A stretch of 64,000 nucleotides of DNA from an uncultured Bacteroides sp. (lineage in GTDB: Bacteria > Bacteroidota > Bacteroidia > Bacteroidales > Bacteroidaceae): assembly GCA_947646015.1 (NCBI GenBank), contig CANSEY010000008.1, forward strand, positions 1 to 64,000, read 5' to 3'. Within the stretch, counting starts at the first letter, position 1. The number at the start of each line of letters is the position of its first letter. This document shows, one piece after another, positions 6,129 to 43,380 of the stretch. The notes beneath the pieces are model-generated. The model was given only the letters and a program-made list of their open reading frames with translations. It searched no databases and was not told the origin of the DNA. Both the position numbers and the translations under genes were made by a program.

Positions 6129-6291
6129 TTTTATTTCTTGCCTGCCTTTCTGTCCCGTGCCGGATTGCACAAGGCTTTGCGAAAAAATACCGGAGCCCCC
6201 GGGCGAGGATGATTTTTTCAGCAAACCACGGAGGGGCCCGGCCTTGCACAATCCAGCGGGCACGGGACGACCTTTGCAGGCGGAAATAAAA
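6129..6291 (-). promoter_or_regulatory. Structured element A (candidate single-strand promoter)
   Basis: The outer stem TTTTATTTC..GCCTGC (6129-6145) pairs with GCAGGC..GAAATAAAA (6276-6291). A middle stem pairs GTCCCGTGCC with GGCACGGGAC, and GGATTG / CAAGGC with GCCTTG / CAATCC. An inner arm GAAAAAAT pairs with ATTTTTTC. The apex AATACCG..GGCGAGGATGATT lies at 6186-6214. The 3-prime arm carries CCTTG, 22 nt, then GACCTTTG (6269-6276), the only copy whose -7 box starts with G. It sits just upstream of the 5824-6090 gene and downstream of mobC. Confidence 0.7.
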
Positions 6292-6316
6292 CAGCGGTCT
6301 CCCTTTTTCTCTATTT

Positions 6317-8344
6317 TCAGTCATTGTTTTCTTCTCCCTCCTGCTGCGGGATGAGGTATCTCAGCTCCGGATCATTTTTTATTCTTTCCATCTCTTCTTC
6401 TATTATCTGCAACACGTCCGCCTTTATCTGCGAGTAGTTGCGGTCAATCTGCTGCTGCATGATATCGTTTCCGTCCGCGTCCCTGAACTCGTTGATGACA
6501 GGAATTTTCTTGTAGGCTTTCATTTCTTCCGATACCTTTGCGCTGTCCACGATGATGCGGGCATGGAAAATTTTCTGGTCTATCTCTTCTCCGAAATTGT
6601 CTGCCACGCTGCCAACGAATGTACCTTGCGAAAGATTGGCTATCTTGGAGGCGGGTATCAGGGAATCAAGCTGCGTGTTGATGGAAGTCGAAGTATCCTG
6701 ACGGTTGATGGATATGGACTGCCGCTGCTGGAGTATCTTGCCGAACCGTTCCGACAGTGATTTTGCCGTTTCTCCTACAACTTGCCCGCTGAAGATATTG
6801 CCCACTGTATTTTGGATTACCTTTGCCTCCTTGTCTCCGTAGTCGCGTGCAAGCTGCGAGAAGTCCTGGAAGCCGAGACAGACGGCCACCTTGTTGCTTC
6901 GGGCGGTCGCAATCAGGTTGTCGATACCACGGAAATAGATGGTCGGAAGCTCGTCAATGATGATGGAACTTTTCAGTTGTCCTTTCTTGTTTACCAATTT
7001 GACGATGCGCGAATTGTACAGGCCGAGAGCCGCCGAATAGATATTCTGTCTGTCCGGATTATTGCCCACGCAGAGGATTTTTGGATGTTCGGGATTGTTC
7101 AGATCCAAAGTAAAATCATCCCCTGTCATCACCCAGTAAAGCTGTGGCGAGATCATTCGCGAAAGCGGAATTTTCGCACTTGCTATCTGGCCCTGGAGCT
7201 GGTCTTGAGCTCCGCCTTGCCATGCATCCATAAAGGGGGAAAGATAGTTTTCGAGGGACGGATAAGAGGTAAGAATCGTGAAGATATCGGCATATGGCTT
7301 GTTAAGAAATTCAATTGCATGAGGGAACGTGCAATACTTTCCGTCCTTGTAAATCCGCAAATACCAGATGATTGCGGCAAGCAGGATAATCGGTGACTCC
7401 ACGAAAAAATCACCCTGTTTCTGTATCCAGGTCTTGTTCAAATTGAGCATTATGGTATAGGCACTTTCGTAGGCATCGCTGATGTCTGCCATGAATCTCG
7501 GATTGATGGGATTGCAGCGGTGGCTGCGTCTGGGGTCGTCAAAATTGATGACGTAGAATTCCGGCTTGACCTTGTAATGTTGTCTGTGCTTGAGCAGATG
7601 GTTGTAGGCTATCTCCGAGAGGTCCGGAAATTTGTAGTCGTAGATATACATGGCAAAGGATTTCTCGATCTGCTGTTTGATGTAGTTGTTCACCACGGCA
7701 TAGCTCTTTCCGGAGCCGGGTGTTCCCAGTACGATAGAGGCTCGGAACGGGTTCACGATGTTGATCCAGCCGTCCCATTCCTTACCCTGATAGACAAATT
7801 TCGTGGGCAGGTTTACGGAATACTCGTTTTCCATAAGCCTTGTTTCCTGCATGAAACTTTCGTTGGCGGTGTTGAATACGTCTTCCATAAGGTTGTGCTT
7901 CAGCATACGGCTGATCCATATTCCCGACATAAGCAGGAGAATGTAGCCCGTGGTAAGCGTCAGCGTATATACGGTAGCATTCACTGTCGTACTGAACGGC
8001 AGGTCAAGCATCCACCAGTTCATGAAGAACAAGACAATGCCGCCGAGGAAGGCGGCGTATATTTTCCGCCACGTCATCTTCTGGTTCTTGACACCTTTCG
8101 TACCCAGACACGAAAGTCCCAGAAATATGAAGGCGAACACTTTCGTCACGAGCAGGTTGCTGAACAGTCCTGCCGTCTTCTGGAAGTTCAGCAGAATCCT
8201 GTCCACGACTCCAATGTTGATGCCCATATCCACGAATGCGCTGTAGCAGAACCAGTAGACATGGATTACAATAAACACGATGGAAATGGCACGCATGAAC
8301 TCCATGACCTTGGCCAGTCCTCTCAAATCATCTTCTTGTTGCAT
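6317..8344 (-). CDS. mobC: MobC/TraG-type coupling ATPase (type IV coupling protein)
   Basis: A VirD4-like ATPase of 675 residues that links the relaxosome to the secretion channel. N-terminal membrane segments (SIVFIVIHVYWFCYSAF and others, to about residue 150) precede Walker A LGTPGSGKS near residue 207 and Walker B IIIDELP near 460. The open frame extends 103 codons further upstream, but that part is antisense-like and overlaps mobB. The start MQQEDDLRGLAKVMEFMR at 8344, 34 bp after mobB, fits family members. It is the last gene of the mobABC operon. Confidence 0.93.
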   Translation of the reverse strand: MQQEDDLRGLAKVMEFMRAISIVFIVIHVYWFCYSAFVDMGINIGVVDRILLNFQKTAGLFSNLLVTKVFAFIFLGLSCLGTKGVKNQKMTWRKIYAAFLGGIVLFFMNWWMLDLPFSTTVNATVYTLTLTTGYILLLMSGIWISRMLKHNLMEDVFNTANESFMQETRLMENEYSVNLPTKFVYQGKEWDGWINIVNPFRASIVLGTPGSGKSYAVVNNYIKQQIEKSFAMYIYDYKFPDLSEIAYNHLLKHRQHYKVKPEFYVINFDDPRRSHRCNPINPRFMADISDAYESAYTIMLNLNKTWIQKQGDFFVESPIILLAAIIWYLRIYKDGKYCTFPHAIEFLNKPYADIFTILTSYPSLENYLSPFMDAWQGGAQDQLQGQIASAKIPLSRMISPQLYWVMTGDDFTLDLNNPEHPKILCVGNNPDRQNIYSAALGLYNSRIVKLVNKKGQLKSSIIIDELPTIYFRGIDNLIATARSNKVAVCLGFQDFSQLARDYGDKEAKVIQNTVGNIFSGQVVGETAKSLSERFGKILQQRQSISINRQDTSTSINTQLDSLIPASKIANLSQGTFVGSVADNFGEEIDQKIFHARIIVDSAKVSEEMKAYKKIPVINEFRDADGNDIMQQQIDRNYSQIKADVLQIIEEEMERIKNDPELRYLIPQQEGEENND

Positions 8345-8378
8345 AACTGTAAAAATTTTGATGGTTGGTAATTGACAA

Positions 8379-9632
8379 TCAGGATATGCCGCGTGAACGG
8401 CGTTTCTTCTTTTTTTTGCGTTGCAGTCTGCGGGCGAGTGCCTCCTCCTGTGGGTCCGGTCCGTTGATGTCGGGACTGAATATTCCGAAAGTCTGCTCGA
8501 TGGCGCTTTCCATGTTGTCGGAAAGGCTCTCCCGTGTGGAGGTATATTGTCCGGGGAATTCCGGCTCCGGAAATTCCTGCGGCCTGTTAAAAAGCTGTTC
8601 GAAGGCGTTGGCGGAAAACTCCTTGCCCAGACGGGAACCGTTATATACCTCACGGTTCCTGTGGTCTATGAAGGTCACGCCGTAGATGCGGCCTTCCTCG
8701 TTTTCCCTGAACACCACATCAATGCCCTTTTCCCCGAGCAGCCGGATGAAATCTTCCCGGTTTCCACGGCAGCCGTGCATGGCCAGCGTGACGGCATCAT
8801 GGATTTTCGGCTGCCACTTCCGGTTTCTGAAGTCACGGACATTGACGGCAATCCTTTTTTCTATCCCTTCGTAGCCGAAGCGCTTGCCGATGAGCGAAGA
8901 CTTGATGGGCGTACATACCGGCCTGCCCGCATCGTCCGTCAGGGTATATACGATGCCGTTGTAAGGTGAGCCTTCAAATTCTCCCCGAACCTGTTTGGCC
9001 TCGATGTTGAAGCATGAGAGCATGGCACTGAACTCCCCGAATGTCTGGAAGCGGTAGGCGGTGAAAATGCTCTTTAGGATATTGCCGACCTGACGTTTTA
9101 CGCCCCCGTCCCGGTAGTCCGCCTTCTTGAGATACGGTTCCAGCAGTTCGTTCCGCTTGTCGGCCACAGGCTTGAGCCCGAATCTGTTTTCCAGTTCCCG
9201 GCAGGCTTTCATCGAACGGTTCCATTCGTATGCGTCACTGATTTTTTCGCCGTTCTCCTTCACGCAGGTGGAGACAATATGGACATGCCTGCGGTCGATG
9301 TCCTCGTGCAGATAGACGATGTAGGGCTGGTCGCCGTAGCCCATCTTCTGCATATACTCGCGTGCCAGTTCTGCGAACTGCCCGTCCGTGAGGCGGTCGT
9401 CCACCGATGGGTTCAGGGAGATATGCAGTACCGGCTTCTCCGTGTTCCTGTTGGCGGCGAGATAGCTCTCGAAAGCCCACAGCGTCTGCTGCATGACATT
9501 GTGGGGATTTCCGGTGAGGTCGGTAATCATGCGGTTGCCCGCGATGATACGGGCGGTTGCCTCGTCCACTTTACGCTGGTTGTAGATGACCGCCCCGTAG
9601 AGCGATACACCCCTGTTGATCTTAGCCACCAT
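8379..9632 (-). CDS. mobB: MobB relaxase
   Basis: The DNA-nicking transesterase that starts conjugal transfer. The N-terminal relaxase domain has a likely catalytic tyrosine (SLYGAVIYNQRKV, residues 10-22), and the metal-binding histidine motif HEDIDRRHVHIVST near residue 105-118. The tail is strongly basic (RRLQRKKKKKRRSRG), as expected of a DNA-bound protein. Length is 417 residues. It overlaps mobA by 11 bp and is followed by mobC. Its target, oriT, is expected in the stretch right of mobA. Confidence 0.93.
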   Translation of the reverse strand: MVAKINRGVSLYGAVIYNQRKVDEATARIIAGNRMITDLTGNPHNVMQQTLWAFESYLAANRNTEKPVLHISLNPSVDDRLTDGQFAELAREYMQKMGYGDQPYIVYLHEDIDRRHVHIVSTCVKENGEKISDAYEWNRSMKACRELENRFGLKPVADKRNELLEPYLKKADYRDGGVKRQVGNILKSIFTAYRFQTFGEFSAMLSCFNIEAKQVRGEFEGSPYNGIVYTLTDDAGRPVCTPIKSSLIGKRFGYEGIEKRIAVNVRDFRNRKWQPKIHDAVTLAMHGCRGNREDFIRLLGEKGIDVVFRENEEGRIYGVTFIDHRNREVYNGSRLGKEFSANAFEQLFNRPQEFPEPEFPGQYTSTRESLSDNMESAIEQTFGIFSPDINGPDPQEEALARRLQRKKKKKRRSRGIS

Positions 9633-10122
9633 TCTGCTGTTCCTCCTTCTTTCTTTTTATAAGGTATTCCTCCTCGAACTCCCGTGTAAGCATGATGATC
9701 CGCTTGCTCAGCACCACCAGGTCGATGGTAGCCTTCTCCAGATTACGGAGCAGGGCGAACGCCCGTTTCTCGCCGAAATTGGACTTGACTGCCTTCACTG
9801 TCTGGTTGTAGTTGTTGCCGATGGCCTGAAACTGGTGATAGAAATTTGTAAGTCTGATGTAGTAGTCCATCGCAGCCTTGTCGATTCTGACGACCTTCAT
9901 TTCACGTCCGAAAATCATCGCTTTGATGAACTTGGAATGCTGTTTCAGTCCAGATTTCTGGAACAGGATTTCAAAGTGGCCGTTCTCTTCCGAGTTCAGC
10001 CGTACCACATAGCGGTGTACCGCCGGGTCTGTTTTCGGCTTCCGTCCCGCACCTTTTCTTGTCTTTCTTTTACTGTTTTCTTCCATACGCATTGAGATTT
10101 TCTGTTCTGTTTCTTCCGTCAT
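9622..10122 (-). CDS. mobA: MobA relaxosome accessory protein
   Basis: A small basic oriT-binding protein (166 aa) that helps the MobB relaxase, matching the mobA-mobB pair of Bacteroides conjugative transposons. The basic N-terminus KRKTRKGAGRKPKTD is followed by RYVVRLNSEENGHFEILF, a ribbon-helix-helix-like start, then the MobC-type helical region FYHQFQAIGNNYNQTVKAV. It overlaps mobB by 11 bp. A shorter start at MEENSKRK (10086) is possible. Confidence 0.85.
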   Translation of the reverse strand: MTEETEQKISMRMEENSKRKTRKGAGRKPKTDPAVHRYVVRLNSEENGHFEILFQKSGLKQHSKFIKAMIFGREMKVVRIDKAAMDYYIRLTNFYHQFQAIGNNYNQTVKAVKSNFGEKRAFALLRNLEKATIDLVVLSKRIIMLTREFEEEYLIKRKKEEQQNGG

Positions 10123-10169
10123 GGATTTCCGACTTTGGAGGAAATCCCTCCCGAGCCTTCAGGCGAGCG

Positions 10170-10224
10170 GCAAGTTTGTTTTGAGTGCCCGAATTTATTT
10201 CGGGTGCCTCAAAACACAACTTGC
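10170..10224. repeat. Long inverted repeat beside mobA
   Basis: Arms of about 24 bp, GCAAGTTTGTTTTGAG plus TGCCCGAA, pair with TTCGGG plus CTCAAAACACAACTTGC with few mismatches. This is the strongest palindrome in the mob region and a candidate relaxosome structure. Confidence 0.75.
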
Positions 10225-10332
10225 TATTACCGCTTGGTAATGAATTTTCCTTCGTCAAATTAAATTTTGACCTTCAGCCTCATTCTTCGGCTTCGGGAAA
10301 CCTCCGCAGCGGTATCCGTTCCGTTGTCGGTG

Positions 10333-10340
10333 CAAAGTTA
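10333..10340 (-). promoter_or_regulatory. Promoter of the mobABC operon
   Basis: On the minus strand TAACTTTG fits the -7 box TAnnTTTG. It would produce a leader of about 200 nt that includes the inverted repeats, ahead of mobA. The -33 box is weak. Confidence 0.5.
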
Positions 10341-10374
10341 TGGCGGTTTATCCTGTTGTAAAATAGCGGGTTAT

Positions 10375-10408
10375 ATGTAACGTGATGACATATGGTGACA
10401 CAGGTCGT
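10375..10408. promoter_or_regulatory. 34-bp motif, copy 1
   Basis: ATGTAACGTGATGACATA followed by TGGTGACACAGGTCGT is 29/34 identical to a site at 18090-18123. It has inner dyad symmetry (GTGATGAC with GGTGACAC). This copy lies between the divergent mob and traA units, just upstream of the mob promoter. It is a candidate regulator-binding site. Confidence 0.6.
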
Positions 10409-11454: not shown

Positions 11455-11461
11455 TTGAGGT

Positions 11462-11881: not shown

Positions 11882-11883
11882 TC

Positions 11884-12672: not shown

Positions 12673-12674
12673 AT

Positions 12675-13013: not shown

Positions 13014-13817
13014 TTATTCAACTCTTTTGGCATTATCTAATCTCCTATGACAGTAAGAAATCAAAGACAAAATTTCTAAAGCATCTTGTTCACTCACTGG
13101 CCACTCAATTTTTGGTTGATGAGCTTCTGGATTCCTAAACATATTGCACAAACCTTCTAAGATTGCCTCGAAACCTTTCTGTTCATCTTTTTCCTGTTTG
13201 GATTTATACGAATTGATTACCAATATAGGATGATTAAACACATATTCCACTAACCGTATTCCATCAGTATTAATTAATGACAGTTGCCGTATTCTTGCAA
13301 ATAACCCTTTGCAAGCTTCAAATACAGCATGAAAGTAGTTCTTATCAACTAGTTCTGTTGTGCAATATTTGAATATTTCTTGATGTGCATTCCTCATCTG
13401 AAGATTTACTAAAAGGTCATTTGCACGTTGTTGGGCTTCACTAATAGTTTTTGCAGTAGTAACGACCCTAAAACGGCCGTTTGATTGTAATTCATAACCT
13501 ACATAAGATAGGCATTCATTAATCGCCTTTCTTTTTGTCTCAAAAATTTGATTATCTGTAAAACGCGCAGGGTTCAATACAATTTGGATGAATCTCAATA
13601 TTTTGTTTGAACATTTATCAAAGTTCTGAACGGATGCAAGTGCACTGTAAAGCCTTTTCCATTTCGTTATTTCAGGAGTCACATCTTTAATATTACACTG
13701 CTGAAGGAAATAAGATATTTCAGATCCAGTAAGTCCATTCGATGTATCTCCTAGTATTTTTGAAATACGTTCCAATATACCTTGGTTTAAGCAATATCTT
13801 AGTTCCATAACTGTCAA
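13014..13817 (-). CDS. TIGR02391 (Ymh-like) protein with HEPN motif
   Basis: A 267-residue protein whose C-terminal half matches the TIGR02391/Ymh pattern: HAVFEACKGLFARIRQLS, TDGIRLVEYVFNHPILVI, KGFEAILEGLCNMFRNPEAH. RNPEAH (Arg228 to His233) is an R-x4-H HEPN ribonuclease motif. It lies 15 bp after the reverse transcriptase gene on the same strand, so the two are almost surely one operon. A toxin or effector role for the pair is inferred. The region is far more AT-rich than the tra genes, so it was acquired separately. Confidence 0.78.
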   Translation of the reverse strand: MTVMELRYCLNQGILERISKILGDTSNGLTGSEISYFLQQCNIKDVTPEITKWKRLYSALASVQNFDKCSNKILRFIQIVLNPARFTDNQIFETKRKAINECLSYVGYELQSNGRFRVVTTAKTISEAQQRANDLLVNLQMRNAHQEIFKYCTTELVDKNYFHAVFEACKGLFARIRQLSLINTDGIRLVEYVFNHPILVINSYKSKQEKDEQKGFEAILEGLCNMFRNPEAHQPKIEWPVSEQDALEILSLISYCHRRLDNAKRVE

Positions 13818-13832
13818 TATATATAAGTGTTA

Positions 13833-15362
13833 TCAATAAATGTTGAACAAACTAATTTCATCAATGTCTATTACTGGAGTGTAACTATCCCTTACCCATT
13901 CAGTGCAAATTTTATATTGAGGAAACGCACCCTTATAGGGTTCATCTACCCAATCATTATTCCATAAATTAACGCCAGTCTCACCATTTACGATTTTACA
14001 TATATTTTCAGTATATGTAACAGGGTGAGGCAAATTAAATGCTATACGTTGAATCCATATTTGAATTTCGCCAATATTCGGAAACCTCTGAAACTTCGCA
14101 TAAACATTATTAACAATTCGCTCTCTTTCATCTGTCGAAGGAATTTTACTAAGGAGTTTACTGATGATAGAAAGAATTACCTTGTACGTTTTCGGACTAT
14201 ATAGTGCTATTTCTGTGAAAATTGATATCATCACAAGGTAATCGCCACAAATCGCAATTTTTTTGTTCAATCTTTGGGCAAAAGTTGTTAAAAGTTTTAT
14301 TAGTGTACCGCTGTTTGGATGTTTTTTGGAAAATTGGTATATAAAAAGAGCCTCCTGCTGAAGATTGGACATTGTAGAGTATATCCTTTTCTGCGTTTTC
14401 CTATAAATTGGACCTTCTGAAATATATGCTTTCTTATCAGGTTTTATAGAATCACTGATGACATCTTCTGTCAGATATGTCTTTTTCCCATTCAATTGAA
14501 AATTGAGTTCTGCAAGAACTTCTTGAAGAAAGAATGCTATTCGTTCTGTATCCTCTTTTGAATTGCAAAAAATACGATAGTCATCTCGGTATCTTACTAT
14601 ATGATAGTTAGATATTCCATTTGTATTTAGTCTTTCGCTAAGTAGCTTATCTGCATACGCAAGTACTATTTCTGCAATAAAGTCAGATAACGTACTTCCC
14701 TGAGGTATACCATTTGTTTGACCATATTGCATACCTTGCATATAGTTGTCAATAATATTTCCCAATAGTCCTGACTTATTGCGTTTTTCTTTAGCTTGTT
14801 CTTTTCCCATCAATGCCCACGCAATGGTATGAGTATATATAGCACAGTAACAATTCGTAATATCGGTAACAAACATATATCTATAAGACAAAGCTAACTC
14901 AAGGCTTCTTTGTTCAACATTTTCCCACCAAGAACTTACTGATGCTGACATATGTGATTTGTCTGTGTCTCCTTTAACTTTAGGAATACTCGCAACTTCT
15001 ATGTTTGGTACTTTCAGCTCAGCAAAGCGATCTTTTATCTCCTTCCAACTACTCTTATTTGTCATAGCCTTGACAAGCAGATAATAAAGGTATGGATTAA
15101 TTAACTGAATAGGCCTATATGAATACTGTGCATCCTTCTTGACTAACATCTTATGATTTACGTTTTCATAATCAGAAGGCATTCTCTTAGGATCTTTTAG
15201 AATGTCTCTCAATTCTTTATTTCCGACAGAATTTTGGACATATTCTATCACGGGCTTAAAATCTATGTATTTGGGAAACTGCATATTACAATAGTTTTGC
15301 GATTCCAAGAAATACTGTCTTGCTTTTATATGCGAAAGTTCAAGAATGGTCTTCATCGACAA
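13833..15362 (-). CDS. Reverse transcriptase, likely defence-associated
   Basis: A 509-residue RNA-directed DNA polymerase. The RT motifs are in order: FVTDITNCYCAIYTHTIAWAL (motif A Asp near 166), NGIPQGSTLSDF near 215, catalytic VRYRDDYRIF near 260, then LNGKKTY. There is no maturase or endonuclease domain of a group II intron, and no obvious msr-msd region of a retron. The C-terminal 200 residues are unassigned. Pairing with a HEPN-motif gene and location on an ICE fit the UG/Abi-type defence RTs; I cannot assign a DRT class. Confidence 0.85.
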   Translation of the reverse strand: MSMKTILELSHIKARQYFLESQNYCNMQFPKYIDFKPVIEYVQNSVGNKELRDILKDPKRMPSDYENVNHKMLVKKDAQYSYRPIQLINPYLYYLLVKAMTNKSSWKEIKDRFAELKVPNIEVASIPKVKGDTDKSHMSASVSSWWENVEQRSLELALSYRYMFVTDITNCYCAIYTHTIAWALMGKEQAKEKRNKSGLLGNIIDNYMQGMQYGQTNGIPQGSTLSDFIAEIVLAYADKLLSERLNTNGISNYHIVRYRDDYRIFCNSKEDTERIAFFLQEVLAELNFQLNGKKTYLTEDVISDSIKPDKKAYISEGPIYRKTQKRIYSTMSNLQQEALFIYQFSKKHPNSGTLIKLLTTFAQRLNKKIAICGDYLVMISIFTEIALYSPKTYKVILSIISKLLSKIPSTDERERIVNNVYAKFQRFPNIGEIQIWIQRIAFNLPHPVTYTENICKIVNGETGVNLWNNDWVDEPYKGAFPQYKICTEWVRDSYTPVIDIDEISLFNIY

Positions 15363-15414
15363 TATTTTACTATATTTTTCTGATTGACTTTTATTATTGA
15401 CGACACTTATGTGT

Positions 15415-16674
15415 TTATATATCTAAACTATCTTCTTTGAGTAAGAAATCAAATAACCCGACTGTGAGAATCCCTTCCTCATTTCGGCGAGGCATAATGT
15501 GATCTTTGACAACAATGATTTTCTTGAATGAATCATTGATATTCGTCAACGAACGGGATTCCTGTATTTCTTTCTCTCTATCCGGTATAGACAATGCCGA
15601 CTGTATATAGTACTTCTTGCTGCCAAGAGTCGCTATAAAATCCACTTCAAGGTGGATGCGAGTCCACTTCCCGTCCTTATCCGGCTTCTTTATCTCCACC
15701 ATTCCAACATCGACACTATAACCACGGACAATCAATTCATTGTAAATGATGTTTTCCATGATATGCGTTTCCTCTTGTTGGCGCATATCAAGAATGGCAT
15801 TTCTTAAGCCAATGTCCGTAAAATAATACTTGGAAAGCGTATTGATGTACTTCTTTCCTTTAACGTCGTAACGTACAGCCCTATTCAAGAGGAACGATTC
15901 TGACAAGTAGTTCAGATATTTGGAAATAGTTTGACTGCCAATTTTCACATTTTTCAAACTTTTGAAAGTATTCGACAATTTTGTAGGGTTGCATGGAGCA
16001 CCTATAGATGATGCCATAATGAGAAGTAATTCACGCATTTCATTCTCATTCTTGATTTTGTGCCTCTCGATAATATCTGCCAAATAAACAGTCTCAAATA
16101 GATTTTTCAGATAGTTTATCTTCTTTTGTTCGGTTTCAAATGACTGGACAAGAGGTAAACCACCGTAGGTGAAGTATTCGCGCCACGCATCTTGTTTGTC
16201 TCCACCTTTAGCCAAATAAAATTCAGAAAAAGACAGAGGATTTACATGAATCGTCTCTCCCCGGCCTCTAAACTCCGTTGGAATATCGGATGACAGGAAA
16301 TGGGAATTGCTTCCTGTTACATACGTATCGGCATTTTCGATATGGCGGAAACTGTTCAATACATCGACAAATTCATCCATCAGCTGTACCTCATCAATAA
16401 TGATATAGTAAAGTTCCTTGTCCTTGATTCTGTCGTGAACATAGTGAAGCATCATATCCGGATTCCTTAAATCCTTGTTCATCCGATCTTCAAGGTCAAT
16501 CCGGATAATGTGATCATCTGCAATTCCATTTTCCAACAAATAGTGGTAGAATAAAACATTCAGCAGGTATGACTTGCCGCATCTGCGGATTCCTGTCACT
16601 ACCTTGATAAAACCATCTTGACGGCTTTCTATCAGTTGCTGAAGATATCTGTCTCTTTTTATTTCCATCATCAC
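15415..16674 (-). CDS. ATP-binding protein, AAA_14 plus DUF4143
   Basis: A 419-residue AAA protein with Walker A VTGIRRCGKSY (residues 26-36), Walker B IIIDEVQ (91-97), sensor-like VTGSNSHFLS, then the DUF4143 domain (LFETVYLADIIERHKIKN, ... YYFTDIGLRNAIL, LEVDFIATLGSKKYYIQ). The last motif resembles a restriction-like nuclease fold, though its catalytic set is incomplete to my eye. Such ATPases are common on Bacteroides mobile DNA and their role is unknown. The start is one of three ATGs in a row. It is flanked by two perfect palindromes and its own promoter. Confidence 0.85.
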   Translation of the reverse strand: MMMEIKRDRYLQQLIESRQDGFIKVVTGIRRCGKSYLLNVLFYHYLLENGIADDHIIRIDLEDRMNKDLRNPDMMLHYVHDRIKDKELYYIIIDEVQLMDEFVDVLNSFRHIENADTYVTGSNSHFLSSDIPTEFRGRGETIHVNPLSFSEFYLAKGGDKQDAWREYFTYGGLPLVQSFETEQKKINYLKNLFETVYLADIIERHKIKNENEMRELLLIMASSIGAPCNPTKLSNTFKSLKNVKIGSQTISKYLNYLSESFLLNRAVRYDVKGKKYINTLSKYYFTDIGLRNAILDMRQQEETHIMENIIYNELIVRGYSVDVGMVEIKKPDKDGKWTRIHLEVDFIATLGSKKYYIQSALSIPDREKEIQESRSLTNINDSFKKIIVVKDHIMPRRNEEGILTVGLFDFLLKEDSLDI

Positions 16675-17276: not shown

Positions 17277-17792
17277 CTATTTCATCCTTTCATAAAGATT
17301 GATGACCGACTTTCCGCTTTCCAACGCCTTGTTCACCGTGTAGAATGTTCCCCCTTTCGGTACAAGATCCCAATAGGCTATGACTGTATCCGCTTTACGC
17401 ACCATGTATTCATCCCTGCGAAGGTAGCAGCCCTTGTGGTAATTCTCGGAAACCATGACCACCCGGTCCATCCTTTCCAACAGACGGGCATACAACAGCT
17501 GGTCTTCCGCTTCAAACCACAAGGGCTGTTTCCGAAAAGGTACTGCCGCTATGAGCTTGATATCTTCGTATCTCTCCCTGACCTGCAAGACCGCCTCCGC
17601 AGCAGTCATATCAAATCCGCTGGCCATCCCGGTGTAGTATTCCTTGTATCCCTGCCCGTACAGTTCTGTTACCACTCCGGTCACAGCTTCCCTGATTTGT
17701 GCAAGTATCCGGGAATCGTTTCCGGACCCTTGCAGAATACGTTCCTTACGGTGTCCCGTGAAAGCCACTGTCTGATTGTTTCTTGTTTCCAT
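17277..17792 (-). CDS. DUF1273 / SLOG-family nucleotide-binding protein
   Basis: A 171-residue Rossmann-like protein of the YspA/DUF1273 type. It opens with VAFTGHRKERI, has TGMASGFDMTAAEAVL around residue 55, and ends with DTVIAYWDLVPKGGTFYTVNKALESGKSVINLY. SLOG domains bind nucleotides or nucleotide-derived signals; the ligand here is unknown. It is a single leftward gene with structured element B directly upstream, placing it in the same presumed regulon as the other accessory operons. Confidence 0.8.
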   Translation of the reverse strand: METRNNQTVAFTGHRKERILQGSGNDSRILAQIREAVTGVVTELYGQGYKEYYTGMASGFDMTAAEAVLQVRERYEDIKLIAAVPFRKQPLWFEAEDQLLYARLLERMDRVVMVSENYHKGCYLRRDEYMVRKADTVIAYWDLVPKGGTFYTVNKALESGKSVINLYERMK

Positions 17793-17838
17793 GTTATCTT
17801 CTGTTTTTTGTTTTTACATATATCCATTCAAACCGAAC

Positions 17839-18012
17839 GGTATTTTATTTCCTGAAGGCTTTTCCGCCCCGGTCCGGAATCCCGCAAGGCTTGCCGTGAA
17901 AAAATACCGCAAGCGCAGCGAGGATGATTATTTCACGGCAACCAGCCCGCAGGGCCGCCTTGCCGGGTTTCCCGGGACACGGGGCTACCTTTGCCGGAAG
18001 AAATGAAATGCC
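17839..18012 (-). promoter_or_regulatory. Structured element B (candidate single-strand promoter)
   Basis: The outer stem GGTATTTTATTTC..GGC pairs with GCC..GAAATGAAATGCC. The middle stem pairs GCCCC with GGGGC and CCCG / CAAGGC with GCCTTG / CGGG. The inner arm TTGCCGTGAAA pairs perfectly with TTTCACGGCAA. The apex is at 17903-17929. The 3-prime arm holds CCTTG, 23 nt, TACCTTTG (17986-17993). It sits 46 bp upstream of the leftward SLOG gene. As duplex DNA the same box could also fire rightward toward traE. Confidence 0.7.
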
Positions 18013-18089
18013 GCTTTCTCCTTATCCCTGTTTTTACTGTTTCATATTGCCGGGAAAACCCTTTTTGAATGCTTGAAAACCCCTTGCCG

Positions 18090-30918: not shown

Positions 30919-31209
30919 TCAGGTGTGTATCTGCCATCCGTGGAACGGTTGTAGTGTTACGGCAAAAGAGCGGTCCGGTATTCCGTGATAGAGCAGACCG
31001 CCCACGATGCCTGTCCTTCCGTCGGGATAACATTGTGTAAAGCCGAACGAGTACGGGGCATGGTCATAGTAGAGTGAGATTTCGCAGGGATGGTCGGGAT
31101 TTTCTTCCCAGCTCTTCAACCGCTCCAGGCATTTTTGGAGCGAGGTGTCACCGATGGATTCGGCATAACGCTTTACATTCTCGAAATGTTCTTCATTCAG
31201 GATTTTCAT
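30919..31209 (-). CDS. DUF4120 protein (96 aa)
   Basis: A 96-residue protein with the DUF4120 features: LNEEHFENVKRYAESIGDTSLQKCLERL at the start and the conserved end FAVTLQPFHGWQIHT. It is soluble and unassigned in function. It is the first gene behind structured element C, whose base is 48 bp upstream, and is followed by the DUF3871-like gene 42 bp on. Confidence 0.82.
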   Translation of the reverse strand: MKILNEEHFENVKRYAESIGDTSLQKCLERLKSWEENPDHPCEISLYYDHAPYSFGFTQCYPDGRTGIVGGLLYHGIPDRSFAVTLQPFHGWQIHT

Positions 31210-31256: not shown

Positions 31257-31430
31257 ATTTTTATTTCTCGCCTGCCAGACTGTCCCGTGATCGTACCCGC
31301 AAGGTTTGGCGAAAGAAAATACCGCAGCCGTCAGGCGAGGATGATTTTCTTTCAGCCAACCCCGCAAGGGGCCTGACCTTGACAGGGTACACCGGACACG
31401 GGACTACCTTTGCAGGGTGGGAAATAAAAT
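31257..31430 (-). promoter_or_regulatory. Structured element C (candidate single-strand promoter)
   Basis: The outer stem ATTTTTATTTC..GCCTGC pairs with GCAGG..GAAATAAAAT. The middle stem pairs GTCCCGTG with CACGGGAC, TACCC with GGGTA and CAAGGT with ACCTTG. The inner arm GAAAGAAAAT pairs exactly with ATTTTCTTTC. The apex is at 31318-31346. The 3-prime arm has CCTTG, 23 nt, TACCTTTG (31405-31412). A separate small hairpin GGCTCC/GGAGCC lies at 31240-31254 on the gene side. Confidence 0.72.
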
Positions 31431-37568: not shown

Positions 37569-38078
37569 TTAATCGTAATTGTCATCGAATACCTCGAAGC
37601 GGGGAATACCCGTGTCGAAATAGTTGCTTGATATGCCCGGATAGTACAGCAGGCTGTCATCCCCGCTGTCCGGGCAAGGCTCATCGTCGATATAGGCCGC
37701 ATTTCCATAAAGTTCGATATAGTGCGCCACCAGCAGGTGCGGGTCTTCCGTACTGATGTCATGCCCGTAACGGTCACACCAGTCGAAGAAGCAATCCTTG
37801 TCGGGTTCCTCCAGCTGTTCCATCGCCTCCCTTATCTCGAAGAAGTTGGAACACAGCCATTCCCGGTTGATGAGCAGGTCCGGGATTTCCTCCCATCTCG
37901 TGTACCTGTATTCCGGAGTTTCCTCTTCGGGAAACAGTTCGGAGCAGGTGCACAGGAATTCCCCCATGTCGCCGAAGTCGGACATTTGCAGCAGGTTGTC
38001 TTTTTCCTGCCCCATGTCTATGAGATGCTGCGTGGTCACTGCCACTTCTGCCTGATTCAAGTCCATGATATTCTTCAT
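37569..38078 (-). CDS. ArdA-like anti-restriction protein
   Basis: A 169-residue, strongly acidic protein, the size and charge of ArdA. ArdA-like blocks are CSELFPEEETPEYRYTRWEEIPDLLI, then FFEIREAMEQLEEPDKDCFFDWC and HYIELYGNAAYIDDEPCPD. ArdA mimics bent B-DNA and inhibits type I restriction enzymes, protecting newly transferred DNA. It is the first gene behind structured element D, exactly the slot expected for a gene expressed on entry. The ArdA call is by pattern, not by a full alignment. Confidence 0.68.
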   Translation of the reverse strand: MKNIMDLNQAEVAVTTQHLIDMGQEKDNLLQMSDFGDMGEFLCTCSELFPEEETPEYRYTRWEEIPDLLINREWLCSNFFEIREAMEQLEEPDKDCFFDWCDRYGHDISTEDPHLLVAHYIELYGNAAYIDDEPCPDSGDDSLLYYPGISSNYFDTGIPRFEVFDDNYD

Positions 38079-38098
38079 TATAGTTTATGATTCGGAAC

Positions 38099-38270
38099 CG
38101 GGGATTTCATTCCACAGGCTCCAAAAGGTCCGCACCCCGGCAGTGCAGGGTTTTTCGGGATAATACCGGAGCCTCCGGCGAGGATGATTTTCCCGAAAAC
38201 CGCTTGCGGCATGACCTTGCCCTGCCGGTAAGGGGGCGGGCTACCTTTGCCTGTGGAATGGAATCTGCGG
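38099..38270 (-). promoter_or_regulatory. Structured element D (candidate single-strand promoter)
   Basis: The outer stem CATTCCACAGGC pairs exactly with GCCTGTGGAATG, with a sequence quite unlike elements A-C: compensatory change. The middle stem pairs CCGGCAG with CTGCCGG and CAGGGT with ACCTTG; the inner arm GTTTTTCGGGA pairs with TTCCCGAAAAC. The apex is at 38162-38189. The 3-prime arm has CCTTG, 22 nt, TACCTTTG (38242-38249). It lies 21 bp before the ArdA-like start. Confidence 0.72.
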
Positions 38271-38293
38271 TTTCTCATTTGTTTTTCCATTTT

Positions 38294-41200
38294 TCAGTTC
38301 ATGATGCGCTGGCTTCCCCAGCTGATGTGTATCTTGCCTTCGCTGTCCCGTTCCCTGACCAGCAGGCTCTCGATGACGGACATGGTGACGTCGAACTCCT
38401 CGAAGATTTCCGACTGTTCCTTTACTTCGCCCGTCTTGATGAACTCGTTCAGCCGCTCTTTGGTAAGCACCAGCGCCATCAGGTTCTGCTCCACGGAGTC
38501 CTTGTAGGTGACATAATGCACGTCCTTCAGCTCTTTGGAGTCGAGACGGATGAAACGGAAGTAGAACTGCTCCATCTTCGGGATGTTCCATTGCAGGGAT
38601 TCAAGTATCACGTCGTTGCAGGTGGGTATGTTCACCGAACTGCTCAGGCTCTGCTGCGTGCATACCAGTATGCCGTTGATGGTGGAATCGAACTCCGTCA
38701 CGATGCTTTGCCGTTTCTTGAACGCCACGTCGCCCTTGACCACAAATACGGGACGGTCAGGAAAACATTCGCGAAGACGGCTCTCGTAAAGGTCGAATGC
38801 GGCTATGGACGTGCAGCCGACAGCCACCTTGCCGGGTATCTTCCGTACCAGCCTTTCGATGTACCTTGTCTTGTTCGGAATCCCGTCTCCGGAATAGCCC
38901 TCTATCAGGTGTGGGACGGAGCAGGCCTTGATGAGCAGCTTGATCTGGCGCATAAGCCGGAGTCCGGCATCCTTCTTTGCATCCCCCGTGCTGTTGTAAT
39001 ACAGTTCGCAGATGCGGCAGAACTCCTCGATGATGACACGGTAAACCTCACGCTCGCCGTCGGACGGGCTGACGGTATGTGTCCGTATCTTGTATTTCTC
39101 TCCTGCAAAGTCCCTGAACTTGCGTGTAATGACGGTCTTCCCGATAAGGCCGGCCAGCTCCTCCTTGTTATAGACATCCTGGTTCTGCTTCTCAATGCCG
39201 AACACGGTGGATTTCCCCGGACAGTGGCAGGCACGGAAAAGCACATGCCCCCTGAAAGCGGGGAACGGCTCACCATAGTGCGGATTGTTATCTTCCTCTA
39301 TCTCCTTGTCCCTGTTCTCGTGGTACACACGACTGCTCCAACAGACCATGTTTATGGAATTGTTATATAACAGCTCAAACTGGCTGTACAGTTCGGCGAT
39401 GTTGTTGCGTGTGGTCGTACCGGTGTCGAGTATCTTGTATTTGAGGCGGCGGAAGAGACCGAGGATATGCCTTGTACGTTGTGACGACGGGTTGGTTATC
39501 TCGTCCGACTCGTCGAAAACAAGGCACAGTTTTCTTGAACTGCGTTTGACAAACCTTGCCATGCCCCGTTTCAGCTTGCCGAGCATGGAGGTGGATAGGA
39601 CGATGAACACGCCTTCCGGCACAGCTTCCAGGTCGGCATTGTTCCTTGCCACCCGGAACTGTTCCCTGTTTATCGAGAGGAAGGGTATCCATGTCATATT
39701 GGTGGCGATGGCAGGAGCCAGTATGATGACATTCCGTACTTTGCGGAATTTGAGCAGGTATTTGGCACGATGGTACACGGCGGCTGTCTTGCCAGAGCCT
39801 TGCTGCCAGTTCAGCAGCGCGTGGCGTTTCTGCAAGACGAGGTTCAGGTCGTGTTTCTGGAGCGTGGTAAACTCGCAGGTCTCGCCGTCCTTGTTGATGA
39901 ATGCACACCGGTCCAGGTATTCTTTCAGCCTGCCATCTTCCTCCATTTCCGGGAACTGCCGGTTCTGCATTTCGTACTCTCTCCGCTTGCGTCGGATCAG
40001 TTTCTCCGCCGCACGGATTTGGTGCATGTTCTTTTCTGTCGGCACTTCCGGCATGGGCAGTTCAGTACGTTCCAGCACGAGGTCGTTGATACTTGCCGCC
40101 TTGTGCGGAACTTTGTCAAGGAGTCGCGGAGCATATTGTTTCAGTTTGAAGCCGTATGAGGTCTTCACCAATGCCACTTCCTTGCGAGGTACGGTATTTT
40201 GCGAGGTGATGTACCTGCGGATGACGGCAAGCACTTTCTTCGGGGTCAGTTTGTTCTTCTCCCATTGCTCCACCTGCTCCCGCGTGGCGTTCTCAGGCGG
40301 TTTCTGGTTACGGAACTTCGTGACCAACGCTTCCGCCTTGTCTATATGTTTGTTCAACTTGGCGTGCGCCTTCAGCTCGTACATGTACTTGGCAAGTTTG
40401 TACTCGAACAGCTCAAGTTCTTCCTTGTTGATCCGGTTGGTTTCGCGCATCAGGTCGAAACGCAACCGGTGTTTCATCGCCCTTGCCTCGCCGATGCGCT
40501 TTTTCAGCTCGTCCGCCGTTATGAATTCTTCCGCGTTGTAAGCCTGCATCTTGATGTGGCCCGATTTACGGAGAAATACCATGATTTTCGTATTGAAGTC
40601 ATGGACTCCGACTGCGGCAAAGGCTGACGGGCCCAACTTCGTCTGACCGACAAATGAGAATCTGCCGTTTATACCGGCTATCCGTGTCTTCTCCCAGAAC
40701 CCGCTCTGCATGAAGGAACAGGGCACGATGACCATCAGGATTCCTGCCGGATTGAGCACATCGTAAGCCTTGTCCATATAGTATTCCTGCGACAGTTTGT
40801 AGTCGAACTTCAAGTTAAAAGGAGGATTGCCGATGATAACATCGAAACGTTGTTCCGGATAGTATTGCCGGATGTCGCATTTCTCGATATGGGCTTCCGG
40901 GTAGAGGTATCGTGCGACAGACACGGCCTTGCCGTCTATGTCGAAGCCGTAGGCATTATGCGGGTTGGGCAGATGGTTGAAGAAATTGCCCATACCGCAA
41001 CACATGTCAAGAACCATTTCGGATGAGACAGGACACAGCATATCCACCATGTCCCGGCATATTTCATGCGGGGTGAAGAACTGTCCCATCTCGAACTCCT
41101 TCTTCGCTTCGGCATACTCGTGGTAGCTGGCAAAGTCGGACTGTTTGAGGTTGTGCAGCCCTCCGATACCGGTATAGCAGTTGTAGATGCTCTCCGCCGG

Positions 41201-41296
41201 AATGAGGTTCTTGCCGGAGTCTATGGCGAAAAGTATCTTCTCGTTGACTTCGGCACGCATACCTTGCGGTATCTGTTGGGGGATGATGGTATACAT
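38294..41296 (-). CDS. DNA methyltransferase-helicase fusion (1000 aa)
   Basis: One 1000-residue protein. Residues about 70-260 form an adenine-type DNA methyltransferase (VLDMCCGMGNFFNHLP for SAM binding, catalytic NPPF near 153). Residues about 480-930 form a superfamily 2 helicase/translocase (Walker A QQGSGKTAAVYH near 500, LVFDESDE near 592, later CTQQSLSSSVNIP). Such fusions are known on Bacteroides conjugative elements. No nuclease motif is seen, so protective methylation of incoming DNA is more likely than restriction. It is the last gene of the element-E operon. Confidence 0.85.
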   Translation of the reverse strand: MYTIIPQQIPQGMRAEVNEKILFAIDSGKNLIPAESIYNCYTGIGGLHNLKQSDFASYHEYAEAKKEFEMGQFFTPHEICRDMVDMLCPVSSEMVLDMCCGMGNFFNHLPNPHNAYGFDIDGKAVSVARYLYPEAHIEKCDIRQYYPEQRFDVIIGNPPFNLKFDYKLSQEYYMDKAYDVLNPAGILMVIVPCSFMQSGFWEKTRIAGINGRFSFVGQTKLGPSAFAAVGVHDFNTKIMVFLRKSGHIKMQAYNAEEFITADELKKRIGEARAMKHRLRFDLMRETNRINKEELELFEYKLAKYMYELKAHAKLNKHIDKAEALVTKFRNQKPPENATREQVEQWEKNKLTPKKVLAVIRRYITSQNTVPRKEVALVKTSYGFKLKQYAPRLLDKVPHKAASINDLVLERTELPMPEVPTEKNMHQIRAAEKLIRRKRREYEMQNRQFPEMEEDGRLKEYLDRCAFINKDGETCEFTTLQKHDLNLVLQKRHALLNWQQGSGKTAAVYHRAKYLLKFRKVRNVIILAPAIATNMTWIPFLSINREQFRVARNNADLEAVPEGVFIVLSTSMLGKLKRGMARFVKRSSRKLCLVFDESDEITNPSSQRTRHILGLFRRLKYKILDTGTTTRNNIAELYSQFELLYNNSINMVCWSSRVYHENRDKEIEEDNNPHYGEPFPAFRGHVLFRACHCPGKSTVFGIEKQNQDVYNKEELAGLIGKTVITRKFRDFAGEKYKIRTHTVSPSDGEREVYRVIIEEFCRICELYYNSTGDAKKDAGLRLMRQIKLLIKACSVPHLIEGYSGDGIPNKTRYIERLVRKIPGKVAVGCTSIAAFDLYESRLRECFPDRPVFVVKGDVAFKKRQSIVTEFDSTINGILVCTQQSLSSSVNIPTCNDVILESLQWNIPKMEQFYFRFIRLDSKELKDVHYVTYKDSVEQNLMALVLTKERLNEFIKTGEVKEQSEIFEEFDVTMSVIESLLVRERDSEGKIHISWGSQRIMN

Positions 41297-41327
41297 GACT
41301 TTATCTGTTTATCGTTAAAAATGAAAA

Positions 41328-41355
41328 CACCCCGCAAGGATTGCCTTACGGGGTG
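41328..41355 (-). terminator. Intercistronic hairpin before the fusion gene
   Basis: CACCCCG plus AGG pairs with CCT plus CGGGGTG. It lies between the DUF4942-like stop and the methyltransferase-helicase start. Without a long U-run it may attenuate rather than stop transcription. Confidence 0.5.
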
Positions 41356-41375
41356 CTGTGTAAATCTTATCATGG

Positions 41376-42317
41376 TCAGTTTTCTCTTAGGGTGATTTCA
41401 TCCAGATGCAGACGCTTGAAACAACTTTCGGCTGCCGCACTGTCCTTGAACCGGACATCGATACGTCCGTTCTTGTAGAATCGGATTTGCTCGGCATTGG
41501 TGGTCGTAAGGTCGTACCAGTCTGTGACAGAAATGTCGTTGTCATCAAAACGGATAATCATCTTTGAATTTCCATTCAGTATGTCATCCGCACCGTAGGC
41601 AATGCCGGCACACAGGGTTTCCAGTTCTCCGCCGTAGTTGTAGGAGATTCTGTTCCTTTGGTTGTATTGCATGGAAAAATCGTCGAAACGGATGATTTCG
41701 GGAAAGATTATCTTGTCCTTCTTCAACTCCGTCTTGACTTTGCTCCAGTATGCCGGTCTGACAACTTTGCTCAGGCGTGCGAGCAGTTCTTCCACGGCCG
41801 TTTCCCGGAAACTCTTGCCGCCCAAGTGTTCGATGACTACATCTACATATGTGTCATAAACAGGACGGAAGCCCATCGGAAGGGTCTTTTCGTCTATTTT
41901 ATACTCAGGAACCGACACTTTGTAAGTCCTGTTGAAATAAGAAATGATGCGGTTCGCAAAATTCGCGTTGGCGTTTCGGTTCTTATCTACCAGATCGTTA
42001 ATCAGGTCAAACGGTTTGAACTCGTTGTGTGAATAGTCTTCCCTGTCGTTATGGTAAGTGTAGAAATCACGCATGGAAACCTTGCCGTTTTCTTCGTAAT
42101 GGAACTTACGTTCGGCTTGGTATTGTTCGGCTTCTTCCTTGAAGACGGCGTACCAGCGGTCAATCTGGTCGAGTGTCTTGTAAAGCAGGTTTTGCTGCGT
42201 CTGGCAATAGACACGGTCCTGTTCCGTAATCTTGTCCTCGTTTCTCACTTGTACGCTCAGAATGCCTTGAAGCAGGTCGGGAGCGTTGCCGGCCTTGGGT
42301 GCTGTTGTCGTTTGCAT
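41376..42317 (-). CDS. DUF4942-like ICE protein (313 aa)
   Basis: A 313-residue soluble protein resembling DUF4942 proteins of Bacteroides mobile elements: ANFANRIISYFNRTYKVSVPEYKID and MGFRPVYDTYVDVVIEHLGG, then NRISYNYGGELETLCAGIAYG. Related domains occur next to or fused with methyltransferases, which fits the fusion gene that follows. Catalytic residues are not obvious. It is the second gene of the element-E operon, 18 bp after the DUF4121-like gene. Confidence 0.68.
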   Translation of the reverse strand: MQTTTAPKAGNAPDLLQGILSVQVRNEDKITEQDRVYCQTQQNLLYKTLDQIDRWYAVFKEEAEQYQAERKFHYEENGKVSMRDFYTYHNDREDYSHNEFKPFDLINDLVDKNRNANANFANRIISYFNRTYKVSVPEYKIDEKTLPMGFRPVYDTYVDVVIEHLGGKSFRETAVEELLARLSKVVRPAYWSKVKTELKKDKIIFPEIIRFDDFSMQYNQRNRISYNYGGELETLCAGIAYGADDILNGNSKMIIRFDDNDISVTDWYDLTTTNAEQIRFYKNGRIDVRFKDSAAAESCFKRLHLDEITLREN

Positions 42318-42335
42318 ATCTGTTAGGGTTAAATG

Positions 42336-43163
42336 TTAAAAATTATCCGGTTTAATCCGGTAGAAATAAGTGATGTGCTTTTCCATGTCCTTGACTATCT
42401 TGACCTGCTCGGGATGGAAGTTGAGCTTTCGCTCTACGGCAGGGATTTTTATCTTTTCCCATTCGGCGGAAGGTAAGAACACATATTCCCGACGGAAACA
42501 CCATAACACGATTTGATTATCCCAATTTCCCTTGAACACCGTTCCTTCGTAGTCCTTCAGGAACTGCCGGAACTCGGCTTCGTCCCGAAAAGCGATGTCA
42601 AAGCCTTGATAGAGATTGCCGTTTTCCGATTCCTCCCTTTTGTGTAGGTAGAACTTCCGGTAGGTCTCGGTCGTGAAATCTCCATACCTGGGATTGGGTT
42701 CGGCATAAAACCATAACGGTACCTTAGCCAGAAATGACACCGAACCGTTGGCGCAAGCACCGCAATGCCCCCAGTCCTTGAACACCCCTTCCGTCCATTT
42801 CAGGAATTTCAGTTCCTCCGGATTCACGGAATGGAATGCGCCTCCGCTGACACTCAGACGGATATTGCCGTCCTCTTCCCACACGAAAGGCACATACGGC
42901 TGTTCGCATACGGAAAGATATCCTTCTTTTGCACTCCTGCTGTCAATAAGGGCGTTTCCGTAATAATCCCCGTGTTCGGTTACATATACCAGCCTGTCTC
43001 CGATTTGCGGTGTAATCTTAGAGCGTGTCCGCTCAATGAGTTCCACATAACTGTTGGCCATATCCACATCTTCCTGTGTCAGCCAATGCTGGTGGTCGTA
43101 TGAAACATTCCGCTCTCTGAGTGTTTCGATACTGTACTTTTCTTTTGTTACCTGCTGTGACAT
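42336..43163 (-). CDS. DUF4121-like ICE protein (275 aa)
   Basis: A 275-residue soluble protein: TRSKITPQIGDRLVYVTEHGDYYGNALID, GAFHSVNPEELKFLKWTEGVFKDWGHCGACANG, and a C-terminal KDMEKHITYFYRIKPDNF. This matches DUF4121 as I remember it. Function unknown. It is the first gene behind structured element E, 31 bp upstream, followed by the DUF4942-like and methyltransferase-helicase genes. Confidence 0.7.
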   Translation of the reverse strand: MSQQVTKEKYSIETLRERNVSYDHQHWLTQEDVDMANSYVELIERTRSKITPQIGDRLVYVTEHGDYYGNALIDSRSAKEGYLSVCEQPYVPFVWEEDGNIRLSVSGGAFHSVNPEELKFLKWTEGVFKDWGHCGACANGSVSFLAKVPLWFYAEPNPRYGDFTTETYRKFYLHKREESENGNLYQGFDIAFRDEAEFRQFLKDYEGTVFKGNWDNQIVLWCFRREYVFLPSAEWEKIKIPAVERKLNFHPEQVKIVKDMEKHITYFYRIKPDNF

Positions 43164-43193
43164 AACAATTTATTTTTAGTGATCCGGCTTTTC

Positions 43194-43380
43194 GGGGCCG
43201 GAGTTCCCGTAACTACAGGCCATAAAAGGTCGTGTCCCGTACATGCAAGGTTGGCGGGAAAAATACCGCAAGCCCTCCGGGCGAGGATGATTTTTCCACG
43301 ACACCCGGAGGGCTTGACCTTGCTTGTACGAGCAGGACACGGGTTACCTTTGCCTGTGAGTTACGGGGATTCGGCTACGG
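43194..43380 (-). promoter_or_regulatory. Structured element E (candidate single-strand promoter)
   Basis: The outer stem GCCGGAGTT and CCCGTAACT..CAGGC pairs with GCCTG..AGTTACGGG and GATTCGGC, again with a sequence unlike A-D. The middle stem pairs GTGTCC with GGACAC, CGTACA with TGTACG and GCAAGGT with ACCTTGC. The inner arm GGAAAAAT pairs with ATTTTTCC. The apex is at 43262-43292. The 3-prime arm has CCTTG, 22 nt, TACCTTTG (43345-43352). It is the last recognisable feature of the ICE. Confidence 0.72.

Follow-up and report, generated by a model that had tools for sequence, protein, structure and literature searches.

The window analysed here is a stretch of 64,000 nucleotides (nt) from an uncultured Bacteroides sp. 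(contig CANSEY010000008.1 of assembly GCA_947646015.1, positions 1 to 64,000), and it holds a CTnDOT-like integrative and conjugative element (ICE). Along this element lie five copies of one long hairpin, named A to E, all on the plus strand and each just to the right of an operon that is read leftwards. Our preferred reading, to which we give a probability of about 0.65 on the strength of sequence comparison, is that the hairpins are single-stranded-DNA promoters that act like Frpo of plasmid F, with the fold of the plus strand driving the leftward operons.

In the proposed mechanism, each hairpin would become a promoter once the plus strand is single and folds. The 3' arm would be the non-template strand, carrying CCTTG as the -33 element and a TAnnTTTG-like -7 box of the type used by the Bacteroides housekeeping sigma factor, and the 5' arm would be the template. 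A bulge of 3-4 nt, extruded from the helix, would cut the distance between the boxes from about 22 nt to 18-19 bp, which makes the spacing best in the fold. RNA polymerase would start in the 3' arm, run down the outer stem, leave the hairpin and copy the plus strand leftwards. The product would be the mRNA of the operon whose start codon, in the window, lies 8-49 nt from the hairpin edge. If the plus strand is the one transferred, these operons could be read ahead of second-strand synthesis, and the hairpin RNA could additionally prime that synthesis.

Five hairpins on the plus strand

The core GCGAGGATGATT occurs five times in the window, every time on the plus strand, with 0.36 occurrences expected by chance when one mismatch is allowed. 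In each 3' arm CCTTG is followed, after 22 nt (A, D and E) or 23 nt (B and C), by TACCTTTG, or by GACCTTTG in A. The copies, their strand and this layout had been described in the initial annotation and were found at the positions given there. The 5' arm partner of CCTTG, described there as CAAGG throughout, is indeed CAAGG in A, B, C and E, and is CAGGG in D. A covariance model, built from 34 copies of the family, recovers all five with E values from 2e-22 to 6e-20.

Hairpin A, taken as the whole predicted fold, spans 6102..6300 (DNA fold of -55.6 kcal/mol). A gap of 11 nt separates it from the start of gene 5824-6090 on its left, and the model matches it at 6156-6277 (E 1.3e-20). Its -33 box lies at 6242..6246, with pairing probabilities of 0.99-1.0, and its -7 box GACCTTTG at 6269..6276, where ACCTTT is mostly unpaired (0.00-0.39); the spacer between them is 22 in sequence and 18 in the fold. 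Hairpin B (17838..18013, fold -48.5) is 45 nt from gene 17277-17792 and has its boxes, in the predicted fold, at 17958..17962 and 17986..17993, with a spacer of 23 in sequence and 19 folded. For hairpin C (31259..31429, fold -57.3), 49 nt from gene 30919-31209, the boxes are predicted at 31377..31381 and 31405..31412, and the spacer is 23 and 18, respectively. Hairpin D (38087..38278, fold -59.7) lies only 8 nt from gene 37569-38078. Its -33 box, at 38215..38219, meets CAGGG through a G.T pair and its first three bases are about 0.5 paired; the -7 box is at 38242..38249 and the spacer is 22 in sequence and 18 folded. Finally, hairpin E (43206..43367, fold -68.6) is 42 nt from gene 42336-43163, with predicted boxes at 43318..43322 and 43345..43352 and the same spacer values as D.

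The -7 box had been reported as open in A to C and as paired with AAAGGT in D and E, and this is broadly what the pairing probabilities give. It is mostly open in A and B, save at its ends; the box of C has two inner bases with a pairing probability of about 0.6; and every base but the first is paired with AAAGGT in D and E.

At the apex, the module AAATACCG / GCGAGGATGATT (6187-6214 in A, with equivalent sites in B to E) is kept across the aligned copies to a degree that exceeds the needs of a promoter.

A hairpin family in Bacteroidia

Relatives were gathered through the core and through AATACCG, so that the conservation of both is partly built in. Of 149 distinct core hits, 133 have the full architecture, the five of the window included, and 75 remain below 90% identity in an ungapped comparison. 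The 16 hits that were dropped lacked CCTT, CAAGG or an exact AATACCG (15 of them lacked CCTT, and none had both CAAGG and AATACCG), and 7 incomplete copies were also left out. Every one of the 133 hits in which AATACCG occurs together with CAAGG (one mismatch) has CCTT as well. Two of the 75 copies lack a box and two more have an unpaired -33 box, which leaves 73 and 71 copies for the respective counts. A scan of named genomes with the core pattern gave 66 stretches in records that bear Bacteroidia names or are metagenome-assembled genomes, at least two of which (L060 and L063) are coding matches.

In a sample of 199 genomes of the window's family the covariance model has matches in 91, and in a sample of 296 genomes of the phylum it has them in 15, 13 of the latter outside the window's genus and order. 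Outside the order the model gave 18 matches; loci were available for 16 of them, and 14 were analysed, the two weakest being set aside. In these 14 the apex differs, while CCTTG-like boxes and, mostly, TAnnTTTG boxes persist; the boxes are partly built in by the model and the spacing is not. The folded spacer is 18-20 in 11 of the 14, with two lacking a resolved value and one aberrant. A leftward open reading frame (ORF) starts within 200 nt in 9/14 and a rightward one in 0/14; a narrower window gives 4/14 on the left and none on the right. The apices in these other orders are of the type AAATAC..CC / GGAGATTTT.

The plus strand folds

Helix positions 3-7 outward of the CAAGG/CCTTG pair hold all four types of Watson-Crick pair at each position, which is covariation, and the inner neighbour pair is C-G in 37 and T-A in 37 of the 75 copies. 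Folding with Watson-Crick pairs only handles both strands nearly alike, and the 1x1 mismatches inside the helices were then scored in plus-strand letters. Over 75 copies there are 56 G.T and 13 A.C mismatches, where composition predicts a G.T share of 0.545. The 35 copies below 80% identity give 22 G.T and 4 A.C, and G/T-type against A/C-type mismatches, over all mismatches, stand at 83 to 9. Because G.T mismatches far exceed A.C mismatches, the structure is, judged by its mismatches, selected on the plus strand, i.e. the plus strand folds, as the initial annotation had assumed.

The outer stem beyond the -7 box, proposed there as the downstream duplex, is real, with at least 8 pairs in 70/73 relatives and in 21/73 when the stretch is shuffled. 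RNAalifold without G.U pairs recovered the apical stem alone, the alignment being non-structural. Frpo of plasmid F, taken as a control for the strand test, has too few mismatches to be informative.

Promoter boxes and spacing in the fold

According to the available text of PMC7366714, Bacteroides sigma-ABfr promoters carry TAnnTTTG at -7 and TTTG near -33. The hairpin family has the same boxes (TAnnTTTG at -7 and a TTG-type -33), here within a hairpin arm and about 22 nt apart in sequence. With the -7 box located by TTT, exact TAnnTTTG is found in 42/73 copies and the others have variants such as CAACTTTG (10) or GACCTTTG (9). Across the family the -33 box is paired (0.96-0.97), and the -7 box, its last G apart, tends to be open rather than paired.

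The sequence distance between the boxes ranges over 19-24 nt and is 22 nt in 40/75 copies. A linear spacer of 18-20 nt, as in sigma-ABfr duplex promoters, is seen in only 9/71. The 3' arm, however, carries a bulge of 3-4 nt about 9 nt past CCTTG (excess of at least 3 in 53/71 folds), and the same bulge appears in fold-free complementarity counts at fixed offsets, which peak at offset 4. Measured along the template side, the folded spacer is 18-19 in 62/71 copies and 18-20 in 64/71. This result is stable when G.T pairs are forbidden (59/70) or the box is kept open (63/71), and copies with a sequence spacer of 20 nt mostly have little bulge excess.

The same DNA also has ordinary TTG-N-TAnnTTTG sites close to ORF starts, and these number 10, 16 and 6 at spacings of 18, 19 and 20, against about 5.6 for each other spacing. 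Since the boxes are about 22 nt apart in sequence and 18-19 bp apart when folded, and ordinary promoters peak at 18-20, folding may build the promoter by bringing its boxes to working distance. The setting of the spacing by a bulge is a new observation here.

Genes on the left side of the hairpins

Ten of the 133 copies lack flanks of 600 nt, which leaves 123 for the gene count. An ORF of at least 80 amino acids (aa) starts 60-160 nt from the core on the leftward side in 95/123 and on the rightward side in 18/123; random points gave 306 and 332 of 1480. A wider gene window gives 107/111 on the left and 63/111 on the right, and the stricter count is preferred. These numbers support the earlier statement that the operons begin beside the 5' arm. 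The proteins encoded by the first genes belong to many different clusters.

The same count bears on another explanation, in which the hairpin is no more than a single-strand initiation site, where a polymerase or primase primes the complementary strand and the gene adjacency is incidental. A folded plus strand and many copies per element would suit such a site, and the apical module could bind a replication protein. Priming has no need, however, of a start codon placed so regularly by the 5' arm, nor of sigma-type boxes with a kept spacing, and we consider this explanation unlikely.

Strand rule and transferred strand

The positions of hairpins and relaxases were compared among the matches listed, excluding coding-like core-pattern matches, the weakest relaxase rows and relaxases smaller than 380 aa. 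Of 207 hairpins in genomes with listed relaxases, 115 have a large relaxase gene (at least 380 aa) within 60 kb and 92 have none. In 111 of the 115 the hairpin is on the strand opposite to the nearest such gene, as in the window, where the gene of relaxase MobB (PF03432, E 2e-27) lies at 8379..9632 on the minus strand. Elements are strand-uniform in 41 of 43 cases, and 15 elements have hairpins flanking the relaxase gene on both sides. Two of the four exceptions are on one contig (G168:C80), which aligns reversed to the region distal to the mob genes in other elements; judged by this alignment, its own relaxase should lie towards or past the contig end. In several elements (L103, L124 and L131) hairpins also occur in pairs about 560-600 nt apart.

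A putative origin of transfer (oriT) lies at 10172..10249 on the plus strand, placed by conservation across relaxase classes. It consists of a large inverted repeat (10172-10226), followed by a small hairpin, CTTGC-TATTACCGCTTGGTAATG. The repeat adjoins mobA. Its right flank is common to other relaxase classes and its left flank is not (identity 0.65 vs 0.32, in a comparison of 11 of 12 sequences, one having no left arm, that was anchored on the right-hand motif and favours the right side). In a tolerant search for both flanks in 12 loci near other relaxase genes plus one B. fragilis record, the right motif is present in 7/13, the left motif stands beside it in 0/7, and in the remaining 6 neither motif is clear. 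A right flank shared across relaxase classes fits a nic site on the plus strand beyond the repeat. The mob genes are here on the same strand as the leftward operons, which is the geometry of plasmid F, where ssb, psiB, traM, traJ and traY share one strand. Relaxase genes typically lag in transfer, as stated in the accessible part of PMC11541004. By the layout of its oriT, the element would most likely transfer the plus strand.

To the right of the oriT repeat, the small hairpin (10227-10244) keeps its pairing through two-sided changes (ATGTTC..GAACAT vs ATTACC..GGTAAT).

Several observations weigh against hairpins that work as entry promoters. Among the matches listed, they occur to either side of the relaxase gene, 72 of them towards oriT and 39 away from it, and are thus not confined to a leading region near oriT as in Frpo/ssi; under plus-strand transfer hairpin A would even enter last. 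Two hairpins of another contig (G711:C16) violate the strand rule without explanation, and a further contig (G647:C13, matches L201 and L202), perhaps a rearranged element, carries hairpins on its two strands and lacks a large relaxase. A remark in the available text of PMC5729914 may also bear on the direction of transfer: it cites a CTnERL that does not excise and for which transfer was judged through a marker located 20 kb from oriT. The tet(Q) gene of a B. fragilis relative lies on the mob side, at a distance of 10-12 kb from oriT. If the CTnERL marker was tetQ, the mob side could lead and the minus strand be transferred, and the entry model would fail.

On the side of the hairpin itself, a promoter alone does not account for the near-invariant apical module, whose invariance is partly built in through collection by that module. 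Ordinary sites near ORF starts also give 10 at a spacing of 22 and 9 at 24, those far from ORF starts peak at 19-20 but at 12 too, and 6/73 hairpins hold another TTG 18-20 nt away in sequence, besides the 9 with CCTTG there. The strand test weakens with thinning, 18 copies giving 11 G.T and 3 A.C (p 0.06) and 11 copies 10 to 1, and it is weak in the 14 members from other orders (11 vs 6). For this thinning a gap-counting clustering was used; one that ignored gaps left 11 and 1 representatives, the 11 with 4 G.T and 2 A.C.

An improbable alternative that shares much of this evidence is that the plus strand is retained in the donor, where the hairpins fire while it is single during transfer and activate the donor's accessory operons. 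The strand rule and the fold apply equally to a retained strand, and tet(Q) on the mob side together with the CTnERL remark, as far as PMC5729914 is available, could put the mob side first. Against it stand the flanks of the oriT, since only the right motif is shared between relaxase classes in that right-anchored comparison, and the lag of relaxase genes given in the accessible portion of PMC11541004.

RNA elements and ordinary promoters

Very unlikely, and rejected, is an RNA element, either the leader sequence of the mRNA read leftwards or an antisense RNA of plus sense. The hairpin does lie in the 5' region of leftward operons and covaries, but a leader would need a minus-strand fold, for which the mismatches are of the wrong kind, as well as a promoter. 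A full duplex promoter on the minus strand for the leftward gene exists in 3/73 copies, and at least a -7-like box in 15/73. Strong promoters of this kind had been named in the initial annotation as what would refute it, and they are rare. In the window, no minus-strand -7-like box was found near A to D, and E has one at 43620. A plus-sense RNA would call for a promoter to the left of the hairpin, where 1/74 copies have a full one and 4/74 a -7-like box. Against Rfam, the window had no match that reached the gathering score, and the one seen near E is at chance level.

Lastly, an ordinary duplex promoter firing rightwards within an inverted repeat that acts as operator is highly improbable and was rejected: the boxes fit the Bacteroides consensus as duplex too, and some ordinary sites likewise have 22 nt, but ORFs that start rightwards are no more frequent than by chance (18/123, and 0/14 in other orders), the sequence spacing is mostly outside 18-20, and a duplex repeat predicts no excess of G.T.

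Comparison with known single-stranded promoters

We return to the reading of the hairpins as single-stranded promoters, for which Frpo1 and Frpo2 (ssi) of plasmid F are the closest likeness. In both systems a hairpin on one strand carries promoter boxes and the adjoining genes are templated by that same strand. The family also shares the placement of boxes in the 3' arm over a paired partner, though the -7 box is often open, and the position directly upstream of the genes. It differs by its sigma-ABfr-type boxes, by the bulge-set spacing, by the conserved apical module and by the number of copies, up to seven round one relaxase gene and on both sides of it, among the matches listed (G149 and G245). 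A blastn search with E gave no plasmid match, and one with B gave 7 records, all Parabacteroides or Phocaeicola (two of the five copies were searched, with no pairwise Frpo alignment). The RNA of Frpo reportedly primes second-strand synthesis, as the title of one study has it. The activity of another single-stranded promoter, that of the IncI1 plasmid ColIb-P9, is said to depend on secondary structure, a likeness known by title only.

Early expression of leading genes of plasmid F in recipients depends on Frpo, according to the available part of PMC9849209. In the accessible text of PMC11541004, early expression from single-stranded DNA is proposed for anti-defence genes behind Frpo-like candidates in leading regions. 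That search, in the text available, used known Frpo sequences and TTGACA/TATAAT boxes, not the boxes of the present family. As far as the sources could be consulted, experimental single-stranded promoters are those of plasmid F (and ColIb-P9, by title), and candidates elsewhere were found by likeness to those. A literature search by listing, mostly without subscription papers and preprints, found no description of such promoters in Bacteroides.

A wider statement, to which we give an even chance, is that these hairpins, which occur in several orders of the class, are one family of single-stranded-DNA promoters, with no sequence kinship to Frpo as far as tested. Folding would make the promoter, with the bulge correcting a long spacing, so that it would be weak or off as a duplex and on when folded; the family would serve several operons along an ICE, and a nested element apparently has its own copy. 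If true, this would be a widespread, independent family in gut Bacteroidota and a second origin of single-stranded promoters, and the bulge would be a simple physical reason for strand specificity. The genes of the element would switch on upon entry to a new cell. The hairpins would then point out which genes these elements may need earliest in a new host, most of them of unknown function (DUF4120, DUF4121, a very acidic protein and a methyltransferase-helicase), and would offer a sequence test for the transferred strand of an element.

Genes of the element

A Pfam scan places the type IV coupling protein, the relaxase and a mob accessory gene on the minus strand (6317-10122) and the tra genes on the plus strand, from 10702. 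The first genes behind the hairpins are all on the minus strand. Behind A, gene 5824..6090 is followed in the operon by 5561-5812 (DUF6926) and 5072-5548. Behind B lies a gene of the YpsA/SLOG family (17277..17792; PF06908, E 7e-18) and behind C a DUF4120 gene (30919..31209; PF13496, E 5e-60). The E operon starts with a DUF4121 gene (42336..43163; PF13497, E 5e-63), continues with 41376-42317 and then with 38294..41296, on the same strand, a methyltransferase-helicase with PF02384 and Helicase_C. The methyltransferase gene of the initial annotation is thereby supported by PF02384.

The gene behind D (37569..38078) encodes a protein of 169 aa with no Pfam match, an isoelectric point of 4.1 and a net charge of about -32, an acidity that resembles a DNA mimic. 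A structure prediction from 5 sequences (mean pLDDT 41, pTM 0.30) was too poor for use. An ArdA-like gene had been proposed in the initial annotation, and identification by homology was dropped, as Pfam gave no ArdA match among the scanned leftward genes. Taken as a whole, the earlier promoter interpretation is supported in part, by the fold, the boxes, the gene adjacency, the scarcity of duplex promoters and the one-strand rule; the copies are not restricted to a leading region, and the ArdA label was not confirmed.

Hairpins in other elements

In Parabacteroides distasonis TSDC17.2-1.1 there are three matches, all on the strand of the tra genes. Two lie directly right of leftward genes, one of them DUF4120, and the third overlaps a small annotated ORF.

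A B. fragilis record (L238) contains, at 3629-10238, a nested mobilizable element with two integrases, DUF5712 and BfmA/BtgA, inside the tra operon. The only hairpin match of this record, a weak one (37 bits) at 7542-7663, lies within the nested element, upstream of a putative abortive-infection gene. It runs opposite to the mobilization genes of the nested element, as expected if the hairpin must sit on the strand that becomes single. The nested element thus appears to carry its own copy of the hairpin.

A phage origin of the hairpins was considered and rejected. The sole match to the core pattern in the viral collection, an IMG/VR contig (L205), carries two ORFs, of 313 and 275 aa, ordered as they are in this ICE, and is probably such an ICE itself, as judged from ORF lengths and order (the sequences themselves were not compared).

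Finally, the region 13014-16674 of the window, flanked by the tra genes on one side and by the SLOG gene of hairpin B on the other, holds an AbiP2-type reverse transcriptase, a PD-Lambda-3_B-like protein and a PDC-S01-like ATPase, which make up a cargo of defence genes.

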